Shown piece by piece: positions 1,519-51,603 of a DNA stretch of 64,000 nt. Below the pieces are notes generated by a model. It searched no databases, was not told the origin of the DNA, and saw only the letters and a list, made by a program, of their open reading frames with translations. Source of the DNA: Agromyces flavus. Its GTDB lineage: Bacteria; Actinomycetota; Actinomycetes; Actinomycetales; Microbacteriaceae. Location of the stretch: assembly GCF_900104685.1 (NCBI RefSeq), contig NZ_LT629755.1, positions 2,542,001 through 2,606,000 of the forward strand, read 5' to 3'. Position 1 is the stretch's first letter, and each line of letters begins with the position of its first letter. Both the position numbers and the translations under genes were made by a program.

Positions 1519-3219
1519 CTACCGCGTGGCGCTGCGCCGCACGAGCAGCGCGAGATGGAGCGCCGTGAGCGTCTCGCCGTCGTCGAGGTCGACGTCGAGC
1601 AGGTCCCCGATGAGCGCGAGGCGCTGATAGAAGACCGACCGCGACAGGTGGCTCGCCTGCGCCGCCGCCGTGCGGTTGCCGGGGTGGGCGAGCATCGCGC
1701 CGAGCACGTCGAGCAGGTCGCCGCCGCGCGCGAGGTCGTGCTCGATGAGCGGCGCGAGCATGTGCTCGCCGAGCTCCTGCAGGCGGTGGTCGTCGCGCAA
1801 CGACGTGACGAGGCGCACGAGCGGGCGATCCTGCGACCGGCGGACGACCGGACCTCGCGCCTTCGCCGGGAGCGGCGTGCGGGCGAGGTCGAGCGCCTCC
1901 TGCACCGAGACCAGCAGCCCGTCGAGGTCGTGCGCCTGCCGGCCGATCGCGAGCGCCACGCCCGCGGCATCCGCACCGCCCGCATCGGACCCGGCGAGCG
2001 CCGCCGCGAACCCGCGTGCCGCGGCATCGTCGAAGCGCGTGCCGGCCGGCAGCGACAGCAGCAGCACCCGAGCGGATGCCGGTGCGCCGCCCGCCTGCGG
2101 ACGGCCCTCGAGCGCGCGCCCTCCGAGCCGCCTCGCCGCCTCGTCGACCGTGCCGTCGGCGACCCGGCCCGACGCGACGACGCCGTACAGGTCGGCGCCC
2201 GTGAGCGCGAAGCCCGCCGACGCAAGCCGGGCCGAGGCTCCCCCGGCGGTGCCGAACCGCCCGGTGAGCAGGTGCTCGACGAGCCGCTGGCGGCCGATGC
2301 GAGCCCACGTGTCGTCGTCGGCGTCGGCGAGCCGGCCGAGCGCGAGCGCGATCGCCCCCTGCTCGAGCACGCTCGTGCGGCCGGCGGGGTGCGCCGGGCC
2401 GGGCATCGCGATGACGTGCCCCCAGCGGATGCCGCGGGCCTCGACGGGCACGATCAGCCAGGCGTCGGGCCGGGCCGCCGCCACCATTGCACCGCCGCCC
2501 AGGCTCGCGCGCCGATGCGCGTCGCGCGAGCGAAGCTGCCATCCGCCGAGCAGCTCCTCCTCGGCCTCGGGCGGCAGGTCGGCCGCGACGACCTCGTGCG
2601 CGAGGTTCTCGAGCACGACCGGCGCGCCGAGCGTGCGCGCGAGCTGCTGCACGATGTGGTCGGCCGGCGCACCGCGCAGCGCCAGCGCGGTGAAGCGCTC
2701 GCGCACCTCGTCGCGCGCGTGCAGCGCGGCCGTCTGCTCGGAGATGATCCGGCGGTGCACCGCCTCGGTGAGGGCGACGAACTTCACCTCGCGGTGCAGT
2801 GCTGCGAGGGCGAGGCCGTGCTCGGCCGCGGCGTCGACGACCACGGCGGGCACGTAGCGGTAGTGCGCGCCGAGCTCGAGGACCAGGCCCGCGATTCCCG
2901 CCTCGACCAGGCCGGCGAGGAGCGCACGGAGCTCGGCCGGTTCGGCCGGCCAGCCCGACCCCGTCGAGAGCAGCAGCTCACCGCCGTTGAGGAGCCGGGC
3001 GACGCCGGCACTGTCGGAGACATGCAACCACCGCACGCGCGCGTCGAGCGCCGGACCGCCCACGAGCACCTCGGGGACGCCGGCCGCCACGGCGTCGAGA
3101 GCGAGGATCTCTCCCACGGTGGGCAGGCTCTCGTCGGCGGCGGCAGTCGCCGCGCCGTAAGCCGCGCCGTATGCCGGACGATCCGTCCGGATGTCGGACG
3201 CTTCGCGACGATATGGCAC
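1519..3219 (-). CDS. PucR-family transcriptional regulator
   Basis: 566 aa from a GTG at 3219. N-terminal PucR domain (about 32-150: LPTVGEILALDAVAAGVPEV, later GELLLSTGSGWP, AGIAGLVLELG), a variable centre, and a C-terminal PucR helix-turn-helix (about 485-560: LLDVLGAMLAHPGNRTAAAQ, SHLSRSVFYQRLALIGDLL). Members of this family regulate purine, amine and amino acid catabolism. It is divergent from mmsA and the aminotransferase, its probable targets. Start choice: 3219 is the first GTG upstream of the conserved LPTV; an alternative GTG at 3117 would remove part of the domain. A longer reading to 3435 would run into mmsA and is unlikely. Confidence 0.85.
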   Translation of the reverse strand: MPYRREASDIRTDRPAYGAAYGAATAAADESLPTVGEILALDAVAAGVPEVLVGGPALDARVRWLHVSDSAGVARLLNGGELLLSTGSGWPAEPAELRALLAGLVEAGIAGLVLELGAHYRYVPAVVVDAAAEHGLALAALHREVKFVALTEAVHRRIISEQTAALHARDEVRERFTALALRGAPADHIVQQLARTLGAPVVLENLAHEVVAADLPPEAEEELLGGWQLRSRDAHRRASLGGGAMVAAARPDAWLIVPVEARGIRWGHVIAMPGPAHPAGRTSVLEQGAIALALGRLADADDDTWARIGRQRLVEHLLTGRFGTAGGASARLASAGFALTGADLYGVVASGRVADGTVDEAARRLGGRALEGRPQAGGAPASARVLLLSLPAGTRFDDAAARGFAAALAGSDAGGADAAGVALAIGRQAHDLDGLLVSVQEALDLARTPLPAKARGPVVRRSQDRPLVRLVTSLRDDHRLQELGEHMLAPLIEHDLARGGDLLDVLGAMLAHPGNRTAAAQASHLSRSVFYQRLALIGDLLDVDLDDGETLTALHLALLVRRSATR

Positions 3220-3331
3220 CAGGCCCGCCTCGCTCTCTCTGTCAGACTGGGGAAACGCCAGCCTAGACGATGCCGGTCGATTTGTCCGGATTCCGCGTCT
3301 GCACGGCACCGCCACCCACCGAAGGACTGCA
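3174..3331. promoter_or_regulatory. Divergent pucR/mmsA control region with GTCCGGAT sites
   Basis: A 7-bp inverted repeat CCGGACG-atc-CGTCCGG lies at 3174-3190. The octamer GTCCGGAT occurs at 3185-3192 and again at 3284-3291, 99 bp apart, flanking the region where both promoters must be. The first site falls inside the annotated start of pucR, which is one reason to keep that start tentative. AAGGA at 3322-3326 is the ribosome-binding site of mmsA. Sites for the PucR protein are inferred from position and symmetry only. Confidence 0.4.
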
Positions 3332-4897
3332 ATGAGCCTCACCGAGACCGCCACCTCGCCCGCCGCGATCACCGACGTGCCGCACATCGGGCACTGGATC
3401 GACGGCGCGCTTCGTGCGTCGACGTCCGGACGCACCGCCCCCGTCTACAACCCCGCCACCGGTGCCGTCCGGGCCGAGGTCGCCCTCGCCGAACAGGCCG
3501 AGATCGACGAGGCGATCGCCTCCGCGCAGCGCGGGTACGAGGTCTGGAGCCGCTACTCGATCGCCAAGCGCCAGAGCGTGCTCTTCGCGTTCCGCGAGCT
3601 CCTGAACGCCAAGAAGGGCGAGCTCGCCGCGATCATCACCGCCGAGCACGGCAAGGTGCTCTCCGACGCGATTGGCGAGATCCTGCGCGGACAGGAGGTC
3701 GTCGAGCTCGCGACCGGGTTCCCCCACCTGATCAAGGGCGCGTTCTCCGAGAACGCCTCGACCGGCGTCGACGTCTACTCGCTCAAGCAGCCGCTCGGCG
3801 TGGTCGGCGTCATCAGCCCCTTCAACTTCCCCGCGATGGTCCCCATGTGGTTCTTCCCCATCGCGATCGCCGCGGGCAACGCCGTCGTGCTCAAGCCCAG
3901 CGAGAAGGACCCGTCGGCCGCGCTCTGGCTCGCCGAGCTCTGGAAGGAGGCCGGCCTGCCCGACGGCGTGTTCACGGTCCTGCAGGGCGACAAGCTCGCG
4001 GTCGACGGCCTGCTCACCTCGCCCGTCGTGCAGTCGATCTCGTTCGTCGGCTCGACGCCGATCGCGCAGTACATCTACGAGACGGCGTCGAAGCACGGCA
4101 AGCGCGTCCAGGCCTTGGGCGGCGCGAAGAACCACATGCTAGTGCTGCCCGACGCCGATCTCGACCTGGTCGCCGACTCGGCCGTCAACGCCGGCTACGG
4201 CGCCGCGGGCGAGCGCTGCATGGCGATCTCGGTCGTGCTCGCCGTCGAGCCCGTCGCCGACGACCTCATCGCGAAGATCTCCGAGCGCATCGCGAAGCTG
4301 AAGATCGGCAACGGCGCCGGCGTCGAGGCCGGTGACGGCACGCTCCGTGAGCCCGACATGGGTCCGCTCATCACCGACGTGCACCGCGACAAGGTGTCCT
4401 CGTACGTCGACATCGCCGAGGCCGACGGCGCGACGGTCGTCGTCGACGGCCGCGGCTTCACGGTCGACGGCCACGAGGACGGCTTCTTCTTCGGCCCCAC
4501 CCTGCTCGACCGCGTGCCCACCACGTCGCGCGCCTACACCGAGGAGATCTTCGGGCCCGTGCTCTCGGTCGTGCGCGTCGCGTCGTACGACGAGGGCCTC
4601 GACCTCATCAACTCGGGCGAGTTCGGCAACGGCACCGCGATCTTCACCAACGACGGCGGCGCCGCGCGCCGTTTCCAGAACGAGGTCGAGGTCGGCATGA
4701 TCGGCATCAACGTGCCGATCCCGGTGCCGGTCGCCTACCACTCGTTCGGCGGCTGGAAGAAGTCGCTCTTCGGCGACAGCAAGGCCTACGGCGTGCACGG
4801 CTTCGACTTCTTCACGCGCGAGAAGGCCGTCACGAGCCGCTGGCTCGACCCGGCCACCCACGGCGGCATCAACCTCGGCTTCCCCCAGAACCACTGA
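3332..4897 (+). CDS. mmsA: CoA-acylating methylmalonate-semialdehyde dehydrogenase
   Basis: 521 aa, the usual length. Oxidises methylmalonate or malonate semialdehyde to propionyl- or acetyl-CoA using NAD and CoA. Typical features: HWIDGALRASTSGRTAPVYN at the start, GVISPFNFPAMVPMWFFPIA (about 159-178), LGGAKNH at 262-268 in place of the ELGG of ordinary aldehyde dehydrogenases (diagnostic of the CoA-acylating type), catalytic Cys296 in GERCMA, and the C-terminal FGGWKKSLFGD. ATG at 3332 has AAGGA upstream. Followed 93 bases later by a class III aminotransferase on the same strand, which together suggest beta-alanine (or valine/beta-aminoisobutyrate) breakdown under the divergent PucR. Confidence 0.92.
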   Translation: MSLTETATSPAAITDVPHIGHWIDGALRASTSGRTAPVYNPATGAVRAEVALAEQAEIDEAIASAQRGYEVWSRYSIAKRQSVLFAFRELLNAKKGELAAIITAEHGKVLSDAIGEILRGQEVVELATGFPHLIKGAFSENASTGVDVYSLKQPLGVVGVISPFNFPAMVPMWFFPIAIAAGNAVVLKPSEKDPSAALWLAELWKEAGLPDGVFTVLQGDKLAVDGLLTSPVVQSISFVGSTPIAQYIYETASKHGKRVQALGGAKNHMLVLPDADLDLVADSAVNAGYGAAGERCMAISVVLAVEPVADDLIAKISERIAKLKIGNGAGVEAGDGTLREPDMGPLITDVHRDKVSSYVDIAEADGATVVVDGRGFTVDGHEDGFFFGPTLLDRVPTTSRAYTEEIFGPVLSVVRVASYDEGLDLINSGEFGNGTAIFTNDGGAARRFQNEVEVGMIGINVPIPVPVAYHSFGGWKKSLFGDSKAYGVHGFDFFTREKAVTSRWLDPATHGGINLGFPQNH

Positions 4898-4916: not shown

Positions 4917-4965
4917 GACGTGACGCGAACGGTCGACGGTTCCCGATGGAACGACGGTTCACGTC
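4917..4965. repeat. Nested inverted repeats between mmsA and aminotransferase
   Basis: Outer arms GACGTGA (4917-4923) and TCACGTC (4959-4965) enclose a second hairpin GTTCC-cgat-GGAAC (4939-4952). There is no T-tract, so it is more likely an RNA-processing or stability element, or a DNA-binding site, than an intrinsic terminator. Confidence 0.4.
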
Positions 4966-4990
4966 ACCTCACCGGTCGAAAGGACTTCGC

Positions 4991-6421
4991 ATGACCGACA
5001 CACTCATCCCCGAAGCGACGACGGATGCCGCGCCCGCGGCGTCGTACGTCGACCGGCGCGGGACGCGCCATCCGCTGCCCGACACCGCCGCCGAGGCGCG
5101 GGTGCGCGCCGACGACCGGGCCCACGTGTTCCACTCGTGGAGCGCGCAGGCGCTCATCGACCCGGTGCCCGTCGCCGCGGGCGAGGGCTCGACGTTCTGG
5201 GACTACCAGGGCAACGGCTACCTCGATTTCTCGTCGCAGCTGGTGAACCTGAACCTCGGACACCAGCACCCCGACCTCGTCGCGGCGATCCAGGAACAGG
5301 CCGGACGCCTCGCGACCATCCAGCCGGCCCTCGCCAACGACGTGCGCGGCGAGCTCGCGCGCCGCATCGCCGACGTGGCGCCGGGCGACCTCGACAAGGT
5401 GTTCTTCACGAACGGCGGGGCCGACGCGAACGAGCACGCGGTGCGGATGGCACGCGCCGTGACCGGCCGCCGCAAGGTGCTGTCGATGTACCGCAGCTAC
5501 CACGGCGGCACCGCGACCGCGATCTCGCTCACGGGCGACCCGCGCCGCTGGGCGAACGAGCCGAGCGACGGCGGCGTCGTGCACTTCCTCGGGCCGTACC
5601 CGTACCGGTCGTCGTTCCACGCCGCGACCGAGGCCGAGGAGACCGAGCGCGCGCTCGCGCACCTCGAGCAGGTCATCACGCTCGAGGGCGCCAACACCAT
5701 CGCCGCGATCATCATCGAGACGGTCGTGGGCACCAACGGCGTGCTCGTGCCGCCGCCTGGCTACCTCGAGGGCGTGCGCCGCATCTCCGACAAGTTCGGC
5801 ATCGTCTACATCGCCGACGAGGTCATGGTCGGCTTCGGCCGCGTCGGCGAGTGGTTCGCCGTGAACCACTTCGGCGTGACGCCCGACCTCATCACCTTCG
5901 CGAAGGGCGTGAACTCGGGCTACGTGCCGCTGGGCGGCGTGGTCATCTCGCAGCGCATCGCGTCGCACTTCGACACCGTGTCGTTCCAGGGCGGCCTGAC
6001 GTACTCGGGCCACCCGCTCGCGTGTGCGGCGGGAGTGGCGACGTTCGAGGTGTTCGAGCGCGACGGCATCCTCGAGCGCGTGCGCGACCTCGGCACGCGC
6101 GTCGTCGAGCCGCGCCTCCGGGCGATCGCCGAGCGGCATCCGTCGGTCGGCGAGGTTCGCGGGCTCGGCCTGTTCTGGGCGATCGAGCTCGTGCGCGACC
6201 GCGAGACGCGCGAGCCGCTCGTGCCGTTCAACGCGTCGGGGGCGGATGCCGCGCCGATGGCGCGGGTCGCGGCCGCCTGCAAGCAGGCCGGGCTCTGGCC
6301 GTTCATCCACTTCAACCGGATGCACGTCGCGCCGCCGCTCGTGATCACCGAGGAGGAGCTGATCCGCGGCCTCGACATCATCGACGAGGCGCTCGACCTC
6401 GCCGACGCCGAGCTCGCCTGA
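4991..6421 (+). CDS. Class III (omega) aminotransferase, aspartate aminotransferase family
   Basis: 476 aa. PLP-dependent transfer of an amino group from an omega-amino acid or amine to a keto acid. Seen: FFTNGGADANEHAVRMAR (PLP phosphate site, about 138-155), YIADEV with Asp276, and the PLP lysine Lys305 in ITFAKGVNSGY, followed by PLGGVVIS and SHPLACAAG-like GHPLACAAGVATFEV. ATG at 4991 is preceded by AAGGA at 4980-4984; the upstream ATG at 4946 has no good site. Paired with mmsA, the best guess is beta-alanine or taurine-type:pyruvate transamination giving malonate semialdehyde for mmsA. The exact substrate is not shown by sequence. Confidence 0.88.
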   Translation: MTDTLIPEATTDAAPAASYVDRRGTRHPLPDTAAEARVRADDRAHVFHSWSAQALIDPVPVAAGEGSTFWDYQGNGYLDFSSQLVNLNLGHQHPDLVAAIQEQAGRLATIQPALANDVRGELARRIADVAPGDLDKVFFTNGGADANEHAVRMARAVTGRRKVLSMYRSYHGGTATAISLTGDPRRWANEPSDGGVVHFLGPYPYRSSFHAATEAEETERALAHLEQVITLEGANTIAAIIIETVVGTNGVLVPPPGYLEGVRRISDKFGIVYIADEVMVGFGRVGEWFAVNHFGVTPDLITFAKGVNSGYVPLGGVVISQRIASHFDTVSFQGGLTYSGHPLACAAGVATFEVFERDGILERVRDLGTRVVEPRLRAIAERHPSVGEVRGLGLFWAIELVRDRETREPLVPFNASGADAAPMARVAAACKQAGLWPFIHFNRMHVAPPLVITEEELIRGLDIIDEALDLADAELA

Positions 6422-6567: not shown

Positions 6568-8052
6568 ATGGACGCACGGGGCCCGGCCGGGGGGATGCCG
6601 CGACGCGCGTTCCTCGCCGCGGCGCTCGGCGGCCTCGCCGCCGTGTCCCTGAGCTCGTGCACCGACGGTCGGCCCGAACCCACGTCCCCGCCGCCCATCC
6701 CGACACCCGACGGCAGCCCCTCGCCCACTCCCGGCGGCGTCCCACGGCCGCTCGCCTTCCGGCGCTCGCGCTGGAGCGCCGACCCGTTCGTGCGCGGCGC
6801 GGTGAGCTTCGACTCGGTCGGCGCGACGCCCGACCTGCGCCGCGAGCTCGGCCGACCGGTCGAGGACCGGCTCGTGATCGCCGGCGAAGCGACGTCCCCC
6901 GAGGCATCCGGCACGGTGCACGGCGCCTACGCCGAGGGCCTGCGGGCCGCACGCGGGATCGCCGCGCTGGCCGAGCCCGACGATCGCATCGCCGTGATCG
7001 GCGCGGGCATCACGGGGCTGGCGGCCGCGCGCACGCTCGTCGACGAGGGCTTCGAGGTCGTCGTCATCGAGGCGAGCGACCACCTCGGCGGTCGCCTGCT
7101 CACGGTCGAGGATCGGGGCTTCGACGACCCGGTCGTGCTCGGCAGCCCGTTCGTCGCCGACGGCGGGTCGATGCGGTCGGTGCTCGCCGACGCCGGCGTC
7201 GCCACGCGACCCTTCGCGCCGGTCGTCGGCCCGCGCACTCCCGATGGCGTCGCGGCTGCGCCATCCACCGCCGGCTGGGACGTCATCGCCTCCGCCCAGG
7301 CATGGGCCGTCGGCCAGTCCAGCGACGTCGCCCTCGCCACGGCGCTCGTCCGGTCCGGGGCCGTGCCGACCTCCGACGAAGCGGGCGCCGACGGGCTCAG
7401 CACGCAGGACTGGTTCGTCAACGCACTGACGAGCGGGGTGGAGCCGACGACCGGGGCGAGCGCGACCCGGGTCTCGGCGAAGCGGTTCGATCCCGACCTG
7501 GTCTGGCGGCCGACGTCGCAGGTGACGAGCGGATGGACCGGCCTCATCGAGCAGCTGGCCGACGGCCTCGACATCGCCGGCGCGAGCGCCGTGACCGGCA
7601 TCGCCGTCGACGACGAGGGCGTGAGCCTGCGCCTCGACAGCGGGGAGTCGCTGCGCACGCACCGCCTCGTCGTCACCGCGTCGATCGGCGTGCTGCGCAC
7701 CGACACGATCACGTTCGACCCGCCGCTTCCGCTGCTCCACCAGCGCGCGATCTCGACGATCGGCATGGGCGCGCTCGACGTGGTGTGGCTGGCGTTCGAC
7801 GAGGCCTTCTGGCGGTCGACGCCGGATGGCTCGGCCGAGGGCGAGCCGAACGTGCTCACCCTCGTCGGCGCGACGCCGACGGTCGCCGCCTGGCTCGACC
7901 TCGGCGTGGACCCGCGGCGACCGGTGCTCGTCGGGCTCCTCGCGGCCGAGCACGCGCGACGCGTGGCGGAGCTCGACGATGAGGCGGCTCTCGAGGTCGT
8001 GCTCGAGGGACTCCAGCCGTTCGTGGTCGAGTTCGGGCCGGCTGCCGACTAG
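6568..8052 (+). CDS. Tat-exported lipoprotein, circularly permuted flavin amine oxidase
   Basis: 494 aa. Signal: twin arginine in MPRRAFLAAAL and lipobox LSSC with Cys31, then a Pro/Ser/Thr-rich linker (32-60). Residues 66-130 (RSRWSADPFVRGAVSF, RLVIAGEATSP at 101-111, GTVHGAYAEGLRAARGI) match the C-terminal end of flavin monoamine oxidases. Only after this comes the FAD Rossmann motif IAVIGAGITGLAAARTL (141-157) with EASDHLGGRL, which is normally at the N-terminus; the protein then ends at the helix AAEHARRVAELDDEAALEVV that normally precedes the W-x-DP segment. So the fold appears complete but permuted. TAGCCT lies 7 nt before the ATG (leaderless). Its stop interlocks (CTAG) with the convergent Pr6Pr gene. 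Substrate unknown; extracytoplasmic amine or related oxidation is inferred. Confidence 0.85.
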   Translation: MDARGPAGGMPRRAFLAAALGGLAAVSLSSCTDGRPEPTSPPPIPTPDGSPSPTPGGVPRPLAFRRSRWSADPFVRGAVSFDSVGATPDLRRELGRPVEDRLVIAGEATSPEASGTVHGAYAEGLRAARGIAALAEPDDRIAVIGAGITGLAAARTLVDEGFEVVVIEASDHLGGRLLTVEDRGFDDPVVLGSPFVADGGSMRSVLADAGVATRPFAPVVGPRTPDGVAAAPSTAGWDVIASAQAWAVGQSSDVALATALVRSGAVPTSDEAGADGLSTQDWFVNALTSGVEPTTGASATRVSAKRFDPDLVWRPTSQVTSGWTGLIEQLADGLDIAGASAVTGIAVDDEGVSLRLDSGESLRTHRLVVTASIGVLRTDTITFDPPLPLLHQRAISTIGMGALDVVWLAFDEAFWRSTPDGSAEGEPNVLTLVGATPTVAAWLDLGVDPRRPVLVGLLAAEHARRVAELDDEAALEVVLEGLQPFVVEFGPAAD

Positions 8053-8810
8053 TACCGCGCCGGCCGTCGCAGCGCGCTCCGCGCGAGCCGCCGATGCACG
8101 GCCACGAGCAGCGCCGTGAGCGCCACGAAGATGAGCAGCACGAGCACGCAGTACGCCGCGACCCCCGGATAGCCGCCGACCTGCGTCGCGTCGAGGAAGA
8201 AGTAGGGATACCAGCCGACGTCCGCGCCGCGCACGAGTGTGTAGACGAGCCAGGCCGAGGGCAGCACGAGCACGATCCCGACCGTCGCCCATGGCACCGG
8301 CGGATTCACCGCCATGACGGCGTCGACGGTCCACGCGATGAGGGCGAGCAGTGGCACGACGAAGTGCAGCACGGTGTCCGACCACGGCACCTCGACCCGG
8401 TAGTCGCGCGTCGAGGCCTGCACGACGATGAGCGCGAACACGATGCCCGAGACGAGCAGGTACACGGTCACCATCGTCCGGAACGCGCCGAGCAGCGGCG
8501 GGTCCACGGGGCGCAGCAACGCGTACGCGGCGGCGACGAGCAGCGTGACGACCGCGAGCATCGCCGACTGGATGGTGAAGTAGCTGAAGAAGTTCACCGA
8601 GGCGAAGAGCGGGAACCGCAGCACGTACTGGAAGTTGCCGATGAGCGCGATGACCTGGACGATCGCGATGGCCAACCGGAAGACGCCCAGCGCCCGCCGG
8701 GCGTTCACGCTGCCGTGCGGCCCAGGCCCCGGCCCCGGCTCCCGCCCCGCGGCATCCGCGCTCGTCACCGCTGCGGCGGAGCCGGTGACGGTCGCGGGCA
8801 TGTCCACCAC
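8049..8810 (-). CDS. Pr6Pr-family membrane protein
   Basis: 253 aa with about six hydrophobic segments (near residues 45-65, 72-98, 110-130, 145-165, 172-190, 212-235). The motifs SYFTIQSAMLAVVTLL and WSDTVLHFVVPLLALIAW, then GWYPYFFLDATQVGGYPG, are those of the Pr6Pr (FAR-17a/AIG1-like) six-helix family. Function of bacterial members is unknown; eukaryotic relatives hydrolyse lipid esters of hydroxy fatty acids. Convergent with the permuted amine oxidase and overlapping it by CTAG at 8049-8052; transcribed separately from the ABC operon below it. Confidence 0.8.
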   Translation of the reverse strand: MVDMPATVTGSAAAVTSADAAGREPGPGPGPHGSVNARRALGVFRLAIAIVQVIALIGNFQYVLRFPLFASVNFFSYFTIQSAMLAVVTLLVAAAYALLRPVDPPLLGAFRTMVTVYLLVSGIVFALIVVQASTRDYRVEVPWSDTVLHFVVPLLALIAWTVDAVMAVNPPVPWATVGIVLVLPSAWLVYTLVRGADVGWYPYFFLDATQVGGYPGVAAYCVLVLLIFVALTALLVAVHRRLARSALRRPARY

Positions 8811-8836: not shown

Positions 8837-9679
8837 TCAGTCCATGGGTCGCAGGATCCGGTCGAGGAACCTGCGGGTGCGCTCCTCGCGCGGGTTGGTG
8901 AAGATCTGGCCGGGCGCCCCGCGCTCGACGATCACGCCCCCGTCCATGAACAGCACCTCGTGCGCCGCCTGCCGCGCGAACGCGAGCTCGTGCGTGACCA
9001 CGACCATCGTCCAGCCCTCGTCGGCGAGCTCCTTGATGACGTGCAGCACCTCGCCGACCAGCTCGGGATCGAGCGCGCTCGTCGGCTCGTCGAACAGCAG
9101 CAGGTCGGGCTTGAGCGCGAGCGCGCGCACGATGCCGACGCGCTGCTGCTGTCCGCCCGAGAGCTCGAACGGGTAGGCGTCGCGCTTTTCGGCGAGGCCC
9201 ACGCGATCGAGCAGTGCGGATGCCTCGGCGAGCGCCTGCGCCTTCGGCACGCGCTGCACGCGGATCGGCCCCTCGACGACGTTCTCGATCACGGTCATGT
9301 GCGGGAAGAGGTTGTGCTGCTGGAACACCATCGCGGACCGGTCGCGCATCGCGATCCGGTCGGCCTTGGCGAGCGGACGCGAGAAGTCGATCGTCGGCCC
9401 GCCGTCGAACGCGAGCTCGCCGCCATCCGGGGTCTCGAGGCCGTTGAGCGAGCGCAGCACGGTCGTCTTGCCCGACCCGCTGGGACCGATGAGCGTCACG
9501 ACCTCGCCGCGTCGCACCGAGAAGTCGATGCCGCGCAGCACCTCGTTGGTGCCGAACGACTTGCGGATGCCGCGTGCCGACAGCAGCACCGAGGCATCCG
9601 TCGACCCGGTCTGCGGTGGGGCGAGCGGGTCGCCGCCGGACGGCGGCACCGGCGGCTGGGGCGGTTCAGTGCGCGACAT
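8837..9679 (-). CDS. Polar amino acid (cystine-type) ABC transporter ATP-binding protein
   Basis: 280 aa. Walker [10 protein letters not shown] (65-73), Q-loop [14 protein letters not shown], signature LSGGQQQR, Walker [15 protein letters not shown]-loop VVVTHEL: a complete importer ATPase of the GlnQ/TcyC class. The start is set at ATG 9679, which overlaps the permease end by 14 bases; an upstream ATG at 9715 would extend further into the permease gene. The first 30 residues are a Pro-rich tail not typical of the family. Last gene of a substrate-binding protein, permease, ATPase operon on the minus strand. Confidence 0.92.
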
Positions 9680-10331
9680 AGCGGTCCAACCTCTTCTCCA
9701 GCGCGGACTGCCCACCCGAGAGGGCCAGGCAGATGACCCAGTAGATCAGGGCGGCCTCGAGGTACACCAGCAGGAACTCGGTGCTGAACGCCGCGATCTC
9801 CTGCGCGACGCGGAACATCTCGGTCACGAGGATGAGCGACGCGAGCGACGTGTCCTTCACGAGTGAGATGAAGGTGTTCGAGAGCGGCGGCACCGACACC
9901 CGCGCGGCCTGCGGCAGGATGACGCGACGCAGCGTCGTCGCGCTGGACATGCCGATCGTGTACCCCGCCTCCCACTGCCCCTTCGGAACCGAGAGGATGG
10001 CGGCCCGGATGATCTCGGCCGCGTAGCCGCCGACGTTGAGCGAGAACGCGGCGATCGCGCTCGGCCATGGGTCGATCGTGATGCCGATCGAGGGCATGCC
10101 GTAGAAGATCACGAAGAGCTGCACGAGCAGCGGCGTCCCGCGGATGACCGACACGTAGAACCGGGCGATGTTCGACACGATCCGGTTCTTCGAGAGGCGC
10201 ATGAGCGCGACGGCCAGGGCGAGCACGAGCCCGATGGCGAACGACGCGAGCGCGAGCGGGATGGTGCCCGTGACCGCGCCGAGGACCAGGGGCCCGACCG
10301 ATTCGAGCAGGAGCTGCAGGTTCTCGTTCAC
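9666..10331 (-). CDS. Polar amino acid (cystine-type) ABC transporter permease
   Basis: 221 aa from GTG at 10331, chosen because GGAGG lies 9 nt upstream; an ATG at 10394 gives a 21-residue longer, non-hydrophobic N-terminus. Several membrane spans with the His/Glu/Arg permease loop [20 protein letters not shown] that docks on the ATPase. [17 protein letters not shown] is typical of the HisM/TcyB class. Together with the neighbouring binding protein and ATPase it forms an importer; one permease gene suggests a homodimeric channel. Confidence 0.92.
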
Positions 10332-10443
10332 GAGCTCACGTCCCTCCGGGCGCACGGATGCCGCGTCCGCGGACCCTGCGCCCCATGTTGCCATCCGCGG
10401 CGTGGCCGACGGTCATGGCGCGGCAACCGGTGCGAACGGACGA

Positions 10444-10477
10444 CGGCGGTGCCGCACGCGATCACGCGGCACCGCCG
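10444..10477 (-). promoter_or_regulatory. Intercistronic hairpin between binding protein and permease genes
   Basis: Perfect 12-bp stem (10444-10455 with 10466-10477) and a 10-nt loop, directly after the binding-protein stop codon and 113 bases before the permease start. No T-tract follows. Such hairpins commonly protect the upstream message, giving more binding protein than permease; that role is inferred. Confidence 0.6.
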
Positions 10478-10490
10478 GAACCGGTGCGGA

Positions 10491-11309
10491 CTACTGCGAG
10501 ACGTCGGCGCCGAAGTACTTCTCGCCGATCTCGGCGAGCACGCCCTCGTCGCGCAGCTCGGCGAGCGCCTCGTCGACGGCCTCGACGAGCGCCTCCTTGT
10601 CCTTCGTGAACGCGAATGCGCTCTCGGAGGTCTCGTCGGTCTCGGCGGCGACCTCGATCGGGGCGTCCGGCGTGGTGGTCAGGTAGTCGAGGAACGTCAG
10701 CTCGTCGTTGATGGTCGCGTCGACGCGGCCCTGCTCGAGCAGCGCGACGGCCTGGGCCCAGCCCTCGACCGCCTCGACCTTCGCCCCCGACTCGGTCGCG
10801 AGCTCGTACCAGTTGCTCGTGAGCGACTGCGCGGTGGTCTTGCCGTCGAGGTCGTCGAACGACGAGATCGACGAGTCGCCCTCGTTCACGACGATGACGC
10901 CGCGCGAGACGGTGTACGGCTCGCTGAAGAGGTACTGCTCCTCGCGCTCGGGCGTGATCGAGACCTGGTTGCCGATCACGTCGAAGCGGCCCGCGTCGAG
11001 GCCCGCGAAGATCGCGTCCCACTGGGTCTCCTGGAACTCGACCTCGAGGCCGAGCTTGTCGGCGACCGCCTCGGCGATCTCGACGTCGTAGCCCACCAGT
11101 TCGCCCGAGCCGTCCTCATGGAAGCTGAACGGCCGGTACGTGCCCTCGGTGGCGACGGTGAGCGTGCCGTCCGACACCAGCCCGTAGTCGTCGGCCGCGC
11201 CGCTCGCCTCGCCGGAACCGGAGCCGGAGTCACCGCTCGAGCACGCGGCGAGCGCGAGGACGGCGGCGGACGCGGCGGCGACGCCGAGGATGGTGCGGGT
11301 TCGTGACAT
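10491..11309 (-). CDS. Amino acid ABC transporter substrate-binding lipoprotein, cystine-type
   Basis: 272 aa. Lipoprotein signal with lipobox LAAC (Cys23), a Gly/Ser linker, then a periplasmic-binding fold of family 3: GTLTVATEGTYRPFSFHED, GELVGYDVEIAEAVADKLG, FDVIGNQVSITPEREEQYLF, DLDGKTTAQSLTSNWYELA. The GNQV/TPER pattern and the TSNW segment resemble L-cystine binding proteins (FliY/TcyA) more than glutamine or arginine ones. First gene of the importer operon; it would capture substrate at the outer face of the membrane. Cystine specificity is a family-based guess. Confidence 0.88.
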   Translation of the reverse strand: MSRTRTILGVAAASAAVLALAACSSGDSGSGSGEASGAADDYGLVSDGTLTVATEGTYRPFSFHEDGSGELVGYDVEIAEAVADKLGLEVEFQETQWDAIFAGLDAGRFDVIGNQVSITPEREEQYLFSEPYTVSRGVIVVNEGDSSISSFDDLDGKTTAQSLTSNWYELATESGAKVEAVEGWAQAVALLEQGRVDATINDELTFLDYLTTTPDAPIEVAAETDETSESAFAFTKDKEALVEAVDEALAELRDEGVLAEIGEKYFGADVSQ

Positions 11310-49322: not shown

Positions 49323-50206
49323 TGCGATGTCTTTCCGTGGGTGGTGCGCGGTACCACGATCATGGGTACCGGGAGCTCGCGCAGCACCTTCGCCGCGGTC
49401 GAGCCGAGGAAGAGTCGGCGGGGCGCCGCGAGCCGGCTCGAGCCGACGAGCACGAGCTCGCCGTCGTGCCAGTCGAGGGCGTGCACGGCGTCCTCGATGG
49501 TGGACCCGCGGGCGATCTCGACGGTCGCCTCGATGCCGTCGGGCAGCGCGCGGTGCGCGTCGTGCAGCACCTGTTCGGCGTGGGTGGAGCTCGTGAGCTC
49601 GGCGAGGTGGGTGTCGAGGCCGGCGGGCAGATCGATGGGCACGAGCGAGAGCAGGCGCAGAGGTGCGCGCGTCGCGCGGGCGAGCGCGGTCGCCGCCTCG
49701 AGCTGCTCGTCGGCACCCGGCCGCGTGCCGATGCACGCGGTGATGCGGGTGACGCCCAGGCCGGCCGTGATCTCGCGGGCACCCGGCGGAGCGAGCGCGA
49801 CGGGAACGTCGGACGAGTGCAGCAGCTCGTTCGCGACCGAGCCGACGCGCGCGTGCGCGCGGCGTCCGCCGCCGGCCGCACCGACGACGATGAGGTTCGC
49901 GTCGAACTCGTGCGCGGCGTCGATCAGGCCCTCGGCGAACGACTCCGCGTAGCGGATGTGCAGCTTCGACGCGACATCCGCCCCCAGGTGCGTGGACGCC
50001 TCGGTGAGCCACTCGCGCGACTGCTCGCGCAGGTAGCGGAGGTAGCCCTGGTCGACGGGCACGCGCGCGTTGTGCGCCTCGGAGGGCAGCACCATGACGA
50101 CCTCGAGGACGCCCTCGGCGGCGCTCGCCACGCGGTTCGCGAGGGCGAGGGCGTCGGCGCCGGACTCGTTGGCCGTGTAGCCGACGACGATCCGGAGGTC
50201 GCTCAT
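49319..50206 (-). CDS. Universal stress protein, two tandem domains
   Basis: 295 aa. Two USP domains: 1-145 (RIVVGYTANESGADALALAN, ANLIVVGAAGGGRRAHARVG, SVANELLHSSDVPVALAPPG) and 150-290 (TACIGTRPGADEQLEAATAL, ELVLVGSSRLAAPRRLFLGS, TAAKVLRELPVPMIVVP). The G-x2-G-x9-G(S/T) ATP-binding pattern is seen in both. It lies between putrescine oxidase and the permease, overlapping each by four bases (ATGA), so it is tightly bound to amine use rather than being a free stress gene. Confidence 0.92.
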   Translation of the reverse strand: MSDLRIVVGYTANESGADALALANRVASAAEGVLEVVMVLPSEAHNARVPVDQGYLRYLREQSREWLTEASTHLGADVASKLHIRYAESFAEGLIDAAHEFDANLIVVGAAGGGRRAHARVGSVANELLHSSDVPVALAPPGAREITAGLGVTRITACIGTRPGADEQLEAATALARATRAPLRLLSLVPIDLPAGLDTHLAELTSSTHAEQVLHDAHRALPDGIEATVEIARGSTIEDAVHALDWHDGELVLVGSSRLAAPRRLFLGSTAAKVLRELPVPMIVVPRTTHGKTSQ

Positions 50207-51603
50207 CGCGCGGTCGCCTCGACCGGCTCGGCCTCGAGGATCTGCGCGGCGACGAGTCGACCCATCCGGATGGCGCCGTCGACGTGCTGGTAGCCCTTGC
50301 CGGCCATGTCGGAGCACGCGAATCGGATGGGACCGACCGGCGTGCGCAGGTCGGCGCCGTAGCGCGCGAGGCCGCCCATGTCGAAGCTCGCCGCGTACGC
50401 GCCGCGGGTCCACTCCTCGGAGCCCCAGTCGCTCTCGTAGTACACGACCGGGTGCTTGGCCTGCTCGCCGTAGTAGTGCGACATCGACTCGAGGATCGCG
50501 GCCTTGCGCTCCTCGGCCGAGAGCTGGAACACGCCGTCGGCGGCCTCGTCGGCGACGAAGCCCACGAGCGTGCCGCGCGGGTCGCCGTGGTTCGAGTTGT
50601 CGTACGCCTCGTGCACGAGCTCCCACGGGCTGAACGCGGTGCCCGACAGGCCCTGCTCGCGCCAGAACGGCGTGTCGTAGACGGCGTGCACCTTGATCAC
50701 GAAGCCCATCGAGAGGTGCTGGTGCAGCTGGTGCTGGCGGCGCGGGAGCGGCGGCTCGTACGAGATGCGGTTGACGAGCACCGGCGGGATGGCGAGGATC
50801 GCCTGCCGCGCGTGGACCTCGAGCTCGTCGGTGACCGCGACGACCGCGGAAGCGCCGTCGGCGCCATCCGTCGGCTCGATCGACCAGCGGAGCGTGCGCA
50901 CCGGCTGGCCGAGGCGGACCCGGTCGCCGAGGCGCTCGGCGAGTCCGAGCGGCACGAGCTGCAGGCCGCCGACCACGCGGCGGTCGAGGATGAAGTCGGC
51001 GTCGACGAGGTTCGAGAACGAACCCGCCGAGGCCGCCATGAGCAGCGCCTGCAGCGCCGAGAAGGCGTGCGCGGGCTTGGTGAGCATCGCGCCGGCGATG
51101 AACATGCCGACGTTCTCGCGCGCCTCGTCGTCGTCGGTCTGCGTCTCGAGCCAGCGTGCGAATGAGATCTCGTCGAGGTCCTTCGCCTGCGGGTGCGCCC
51201 ACGGCTCCTCGGGGTCGATCTCGGCGACGAGCGCGTCGAGCTTCTCGATGAGCGTGACGATCTCCTGCTCGGTCGCCGGCGGCACCGGGAAGATGTCGCC
51301 CTCGAACTTCTTCAGCTCTCCGCCCGGTCCGATGTAGACGTTCACGCCGTCGCGGTAGCGAGGGTAGGTCTCGAGGCCGAGCTCGTCGAGGGTCTCGATG
51401 AGCGCGTCCTGGTCGGGAGAGACCCACTGGCCGCCGATCTCGAGCATCGCGCCGTCCACGTCGCCGGTCCAGAGGCGGCCGCCGACGCGGTCGCGCGCCT
51501 CGAGCACGACGACGTCGCGCCCGGCCTTGACGAGTTCGGTGGCCGCGGTCAGGCCCGCGGCGCCGGCGCCGACGATGACGACATCGGTGTCGATCCGTTG
51601 CAT
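50203..51603 (-). CDS. puo: Flavin monoamine oxidase, probable putrescine oxidase
   Basis: 466 aa. Normal domain order: FAD Rossmann VVIVGAGAAGLTAATELVKA (8-27), EARDRVGGRLWTG, substrate domain, and C-terminal FAD part WGSEEWTRGAYAASFDMGGL ... GYQHVDGAIRMGRLVAAQI. Similar to Rhodococcus/Kocuria putrescine oxidases, which turn putrescine into 4-aminobutanal with H2O2. Next genes upstream and downstream handle the aldehyde and GABA. Its normal order is a useful contrast with the permuted protein at 6568. Confidence 0.9.
   Translation of the reverse strand: MQRIDTDVVIVGAGAAGLTAATELVKAGRDVVVLEARDRVGGRLWTGDVDGAMLEIGGQWVSPDQDALIETLDELGLETYPRYRDGVNVYIGPGGELKKFEGDIFPVPPATEQEIVTLIEKLDALVAEIDPEEPWAHPQAKDLDEISFARWLETQTDDDEARENVGMFIAGAMLTKPAHAFSALQALLMAASAGSFSNLVDADFILDRRVVGGLQLVPLGLAERLGDRVRLGQPVRTLRWSIEPTDGADGASAVVAVTDELEVHARQAILAIPPVLVNRISYEPPLPRRQHQLHQHLSMGFVIKVHAVYDTPFWREQGLSGTAFSPWELVHEAYDNSNHGDPRGTLVGFVADEAADGVFQLSAEERKAAILESMSHYYGEQAKHPVVYYESDWGSEEWTRGAYAASFDMGGLARYGADLRTPVGPIRFACSDMAGKGYQHVDGAIRMGRLVAAQILEAEPVEATAR

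Follow-up and report, generated by a model that had tools for sequence, protein, structure and literature searches.

A circularly permuted flavin amine-oxidase-fold protein with predicted Tat lipoprotein signals, encoded tail-to-tail with a Pr6Pr family membrane protein in Microbacteriaceae

Flavin amine oxidases of family PF01593 are built in one standard order, with the Rossmann element that binds flavin adenine dinucleotide (FAD) first, the substrate domain next, and a segment holding the W-x2-DP strand, the GEAT motif and the GA helix last. LSD1, one member of the superfamily, has SWIRM and tower parts as well. A lysine facing the flavin matters for catalysis: according to work cited in PMC3184146, the K661A change abolishes LSD1 activity, and the matching lysine change slows maize polyamine oxidase 1400-fold. 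The window analyzed here, 64,000 nt of the soil bacterium Agromyces flavus (contig NZ_LT629755.1, positions 2,542,001 to 2,606,000 of the forward strand), encodes a member of this superfamily whose nearest solved structures by fold are LSD1/LSD2 and polyamine oxidase. The standard order is not found in this protein; its last segment is placed first, and we therefore treat it as a permuted variant, not as a standard PF01593 member. The features of the gene are as follows.

6568..8052, + strand: gene of the permuted flavin amine-oxidase-fold protein, a predicted lipoprotein of 494 aa; ATG at 6568-6570, TAG at 8050-8052
6568..6660, + strand: residues 1-31, predicted twin-arginine signal (R12 R13 x F15 L16) and lipobox LSSC with C31
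6661..6738, + strand: residues 32-57, Pro/Thr/Ser-rich linker after the putative lipid anchor, with a low predicted local distance difference test score (pLDDT)
6739..6972, + strand: residues 58-135, transposed C-terminal segment with W69-x2-DP, GEAT and the GTVHGA helix
6982..7167, + strand: residues 139-200, FAD Rossmann element with GAGITGL, E168 and GGR at 174-176
7168..8025, + strand: residues 201-486, substrate domain and remainder of the FAD domain
7780..7782, + strand: codon of V405, which in the LSD2 alignment falls where LSD1, LSD2 and polyamine oxidase have their catalytic lysine

A sequence-only reading of the window had proposed that the W-x2-DP, AGEATSP and GTVHGAY segment precedes the Rossmann motif GAGITGL, and that the chain stops at the helix which normally leads into that segment. 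In the translation, W69-x2-D72-P73, AGEATSP (residues 105-111) and GTVHGAY (115-121) indeed stand ahead of GAGITGL (145-151), and PF01593 matched the protein in three stretches with 164.7 bits (cut-off 19.8). When phmmer was run against solved structures, residues 58-133 were aligned with the last part of LSD2 (4gu0, residues 700-775; i-Evalue 4.5e-6), residues 140-188 with residues 338-384 (3.7e-4), and residues 289-482 with residues 495-691 (7.5e-14). This order of matches is that of a circular permutation and no chance resemblance. The chain end is as proposed: the final helix of residues 201-486 is the one preceding the W-x2-DP segment in standard-order enzymes; the C-terminal end of the protein reads LEVVLEGLQPFVVEFGPAAD. 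The other amine oxidase of the window (50203-51603, − strand), which had been named as a standard-order counterpart, matched PF01593 in a single stretch over residues 16-456 and has that order. All FAD motifs (GxGxxG, the acidic end of strand 2, GGR and GE(A/H)T) are present in the permuted protein, and G145, G147, G150, E168, G174-G175-R176 and G106-E107 were invariant in 82 aligned Microbacteriaceae-type sequences (82 of the 120 listed relatives of the window protein, with N-terminally truncated rows excluded).

In the AlphaFold2 model, the first segment was taken into one confident domain (pLDDT 89.6, predicted template modelling score [pTM] 0.86), with block-mean pLDDT of 81 for residues 51-60 and of 88-98 from residue 61 onward. 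The prediction strongly supports that the transposed segment 58-135 completes the same fold. The permutation is thus practically certain as a matter of sequence and very likely as a matter of fold.

To see how far the order extends, a large protein collection was searched with three queries, namely the window protein, a Pseudomonas protein (L070) and an Acidimicrobiaceae protein (L083), giving 298, 566 and 3538 matches, respectively. The best 120 matches of each search were examined (n=360), and the order was called with three segment profiles built from 40 aligned relatives. The permuted order was found in 335 of the 360 listed homologues, from Microbacteriaceae, Acidimicrobiia and Pseudomonas; 17 had the standard order, all from the L083 search, and 8 were partial. 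Among the matches listed from named genomes, at least 49 of 80 loci were permuted. These comprised 38 Microbacteriaceae loci (Agromyces, Cryobacterium, Leifsonia, Herbiconiux, Microbacterium, Rathayibacter, Frigoribacterium, Microcella, Naasia and others) and 11 further loci, including Acidimicrobiia, Candidatus Microthrix, unplaced Actinomycetota and one Pseudomonas. A survey of 299 Microbacteriaceae genomes gave 99 permuted genes, 98 of them matching nearly the full model and one over positions 4-311, as well as many further matches that cover the core only, like standard-order proteins. Of 296 genomes drawn from across the phylum, 10 gave a match at E ≤1e-50, which in seven cases spanned the full permuted length. 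An assembly rearrangement or a frameshift, which had been named as a possible source of the order, is refuted as an explanation, since the identical order recurs in hundreds of independent sequences. Hundreds of these are named in their sources merely as "flavin monoamine oxidase family protein" or "FAD-dependent oxidoreductase". The Pseudomonas-type list also holds some proteins source-named tryptophan 2-monooxygenase, and proteins named Acidimicrobiales or Actinomycetota.

The cut point is common to the three groups. After any signal, the chain begins just before the W-x2-DP strand, and it ends shortly past the helix leading into that strand; the medians for the groups were 4, 10 and 5 residues after the core model and 3, 1 and 2 residues linking the transposed helix to the Rossmann strand.

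Twin-arginine translocation (Tat) and lipobox signals had also been proposed. R12, R13, F15 and C31 were invariant in the 82 aligned sequences. With a rule of RR followed by a lipobox within the first 70 residues, such signals were found in 111 of 118 proteins of the Microbacteriaceae type, 64 of 99 of the Acidimicrobiia type and 1 of 118 of the Pseudomonas type. The proposal therefore held for the Microbacteriaceae type and for part of the Acidimicrobiia type, but not for the Pseudomonas type, which by these motif counts looks cytosolic. The permuted protein of Microbacteriaceae is, judged from its sequence, likely a Tat lipoprotein.

In the LSD2 alignment, V405 stands opposite the flavin-facing lysine (the place of LSD1 K661). 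As this lysine is missing, the earlier designation "amine oxidase" is doubtful here and stands for the fold, not for a demonstrated activity. Lysine occupied this place in 62 of 63 standard-order relatives, in 117 of 118 Pseudomonas-type permuted proteins and in 89 of 99 Acidimicrobiia-type permuted proteins, 9 of the remaining 10 having arginine. In the Agromyces-rich list of the window protein it was found in 8 of 118, with threonine, leucine and valine prevailing; none of the 23 other Agromyces loci had it, and all 10 Cryobacterium loci kept it. Since the lysine is kept in almost all Pseudomonas-type proteins, in most of the Acidimicrobiia type and in Cryobacterium, the ancestral permuted protein probably worked as an oxidase. 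Lost or changed oxidase chemistry is likely in Agromyces. A second active-site residue, V79, replaces a cage aromatic, Y761 in LSD1; phenylalanine stands there in 87 and tyrosine in 16 of the 118 proteins in the window-protein list. In the Microbacteriaceae type, R66 was found in 118 of 118 and W407 in 114 of 118 proteins, both being rare at these places in the other groups, and W69 and W415 were fixed or nearly so.

The permuted gene runs tail-to-tail into a gene of the Pr6Pr family, with the following features.

8049..8810, − strand: Pr6Pr family membrane protein gene, 253 aa, GTG start; NF038065 with 112.9 bits against a cut-off of 30
8049..8052, both strands: CTAG, in which the two convergent genes end with interlocked TAG stops, one per strand

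A convergent Pr6Pr gene was found at 34 of the 38 named Microbacteriaceae loci, in 28 cases no more than 200 nt away, at 23 of 23 loci of a further genome set, and at 30 of 30 loci from the survey of 299 family genomes, this last set including the window itself and three genomes of the 23-locus set. The four exceptions among the 38 were L051 (1.8 kb visible), L055 (position of the match unclear), L071 (second type, with lysine) and L081 (contig end). Outside Microbacteriaceae the pairing occurred at 1 of 11 loci, in a metagenome-assembled genome (MAG) that the tree places with Microbacterium. Across the 99 permuted genes of the 299 family genomes, 93 had a listed Pr6Pr match convergent within 3 kb, 85 of them within 300 nt. 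Of the six without such a match, G213 has its permuted gene 165 nt from the contig end, and in G083 the Pr6Pr lies at the edge of another contig; G077, G324, G242 and G286 had no Pr6Pr place among the matches listed. Conversely, the 89 listed matches nearest the window's Pr6Pr (E ≤5e-37, counting that protein itself) all came from genomes with a permuted gene, and 88 of them adjoin it, while some Pr6Pr was present at E 1e-15 in 234 of the 299 genomes. The open frames of the two genes overlap at their 3' ends at 19 of 38, 17 of 23 and 20 of 30 loci. This pairing of Pr6Pr with the permuted gene is a new observation, and joint work of the two proteins is plausible.

The overlap in relatives ranges from a few to ~180 nt and is most commonly 98 nt. 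In two family genomes (G064:C2 and G140:C4), the permuted gene is flanked on its opposite side too by a second, weaker Pr6Pr match. Three of the four genomes without a listed Pr6Pr place were read as L156, L157 and L158, drafts of ~1.3-1.8 Mb; they keep the lysine, show no Pr6Pr in the short flanks of 0.3-0.7 kb visible, and belong with L071 to another permuted type within Microbacteriaceae, one that retains the lysine.

Pr6Pr itself was modeled with six long helices (pLDDT 84.5), and T79, H149, W200, P202 and Y203 were invariant in 42 aligned sequences. A Foldseek search of the model against the PDB gave nothing at E ≤0.001; what it listed, at E 0.08 and above, was mostly G-protein-coupled receptor structures. 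A Pr6Pr profile gave a single chance-like match (E 0.72) among solved structures. PF04750 (FAR-17a/AIG1-like) matched weakly, in 2 of 20 members (best E 0.07), the window's own protein not among them. The NF038065 name carries no functional assignment. An open-access literature search, with subscription papers and preprints outside its scope, found neither a paper naming Pr6Pr nor a description of a permuted flavin amine oxidase.

Among the other neighbors, an MMSDH-type aldehyde dehydrogenase gene (3191-4897, + strand) lies upstream of the permuted gene, and a class III aminotransferase gene of the PRK06062 subfamily (4946-6421, + strand; 744 bits) directly upstream. Relatives of the former were found near the permuted gene at 4 of 28 loci compared (L031, L034, L066 and L072) and of the latter at 3 of 28 (L031, L034 and L066), where L031 and L034 are Agromyces and L066 is Candidatus Microthrix; with so few such loci, the two were rejected as partners. 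Beyond Pr6Pr, ABC transporter genes for an ATPase, a permease and a family 3 solute-binding protein occupy 8837-11309 on the − strand. At the Pseudomonas locus (L070:5995-7251), the permuted oxidase, which has no signal peptide, is flanked by a divergent LysR regulator on one side and a convergent open reading frame of 976 aa with APH kinase and aminotransferase III domains on the other. In an actinomycete MAG, a gene with a glycolipid-binding domain (PF06475; L061:7297-7872) lies directly downstream of the permuted gene, and a related gene is also present in L064.

We consider it probable that the window protein is a circular permutant of the LSD1/polyamine-oxidase type, which has become a lipid-anchored FAD enzyme without fast, O2-using amine oxidation and acts with Pr6Pr. 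In it the old C-terminal segment stands ahead of the Rossmann strand, attached via a short linker, and the new termini fall within the loop that links the last substrate-domain helix to the W-x2-DP strand. The protein would fold with FAD in the cytoplasm, be exported by Tat, and then be held by its lipid anchor at the outer side of the membrane. The permuted ancestor having probably been active, the lysine was lost in Agromyces, and across Microbacteriaceae the gene is locked tail-to-tail to one Pr6Pr orthologue; the present protein may oxidize another envelope substrate or pass electrons elsewhere, jointly with Pr6Pr. A seemingly rewired monoamine-oxidase fold has probably gained a new role beside one membrane protein in this lineage. 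More tentatively, one ancient permutation may have founded a separate, widespread branch, which in Microbacteriaceae became a two-protein envelope enzyme with Pr6Pr and a non-amine substrate, perhaps lipid or quinone, its FAD partner being lipid-anchored and, in several genera including Agromyces, without the lysine.

Several points weigh against the lipid-anchored permutant acting with Pr6Pr. Its function is read from the sequence, and overlapping convergent frames alone could preserve the synteny without joint function. Sequential structural aligners matched the permuted model over ~136-490 only, leaving the placement of 58-135 outside their coverage, and the argument from pTM for a single domain is an estimate. 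Lysine loss is complete in the Agromyces loci seen and patchy across the family: the lysine was found at 12 of the 38 named Microbacteriaceae loci, 10 of the 12 being Cryobacterium, and at 10 of the 30 loci from the family survey, 4 more having arginine. The lysine-keeping Cryobacterium genes are also paired with Pr6Pr, so lysine loss is no condition of the pairing. Finally, in free trees built from rotated sequences, the permuted proteins were scattered, with 7 changes of order on the full set of 112 rows (at least 3 forced by starred branches) and 4 on the reduced set of 102 rows, which possibly reflects several origins or reversions. On the full set, the tree held to a single permuted clade was 21 log-likelihood units worse, and we give a modest, minority chance to the permutation having arisen several times at a permissive site. 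A single clade is nevertheless compatible with the data (approximately unbiased test, p 0.30 on the full and 0.69 on the reduced set) and was 13 units better on the reduced set. The cut point is identical across the groups, and none of the 360 listed homologues carries the segment at both ends, as a permutation intermediate would. A single origin followed by transfer is therefore tentatively favored.

The same permuted fold could also belong to an ordinary envelope amine or polyamine oxidase that makes H2O2, with another residue replacing the lysine. The Pfam and structure matches point to amine oxidases, the lysine persists in members of the Pseudomonas type, of the Acidimicrobiia type and of Cryobacterium, and the genes upstream resemble amine catabolism. 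We nevertheless find this unlikely, as the window protein and all 23 other Agromyces loci lack the lysine, valine fills the place of LSD1 Y761, and relatives of the upstream genes rarely accompany the permuted gene. Less likely still is a protein of the envelope that binds FAD but has lost all catalysis and serves in a structural, sensory or flavin-carrying capacity. Invariant FAD motifs combined with the loss of the catalytic lysine and one cage aromatic would suit such a protein, yet the near-fixation of R66, W69, W407 and W415 in the Microbacteriaceae type speaks against free drift, and flavoproteins without the catalytic lysine can, as is generally known, remain active dehydrogenases.

A natural circular permutation inside one of the best-studied flavoenzyme folds amounts to a natural experiment on how well an FAD domain made of two parts copes with new chain ends and on the role of the conserved flavin lysine. 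If the proposed export is correct, the permutation puts the lipid anchor on the W-x2-DP strand instead of the Rossmann strand, which would set the orientation of the active site to the membrane. The pairing may also hint at a function for Pr6Pr, a named family.

Compared with LSD1/LSD2 (KDM1A/KDM1B), the protein of the window has the permuted order, a predicted Tat/lipobox N-terminus and V405 at the place of K661, and the SWIRM and tower parts have no counterpart among its 494 residues. With maize polyamine oxidase (1b37), a bacterial monoamine oxidase (8p84) and PF01593 it shares the FAD motifs, W-x2-DP, GEAT and the GA helix, as well as the fold over ~138-490 of the model; it differs from all three in the order, the missing lysine and V79 in place of the cage aromatic. 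The nearest precedent found for natural permutation in an extracytosolic flavoprotein, though in a different domain with covalent flavin mononucleotide (FMN), is given by the circularly permuted double FMN-bind1 proteins, a prediction presented in PMC11334425. A further counterpart is the Pseudomonas-type "flavin monoamine oxidase family protein". It differs in having no Tat/lipobox signal in 117 of 118 proteins and the lysine in 117 of 118, and in the only Pseudomonas locus seen the neighbors are LysR and APH-aminotransferase III genes, with no Pr6Pr, but the permutation is present in 118 of the 120 listed (2 being partial), with an identical cut point.
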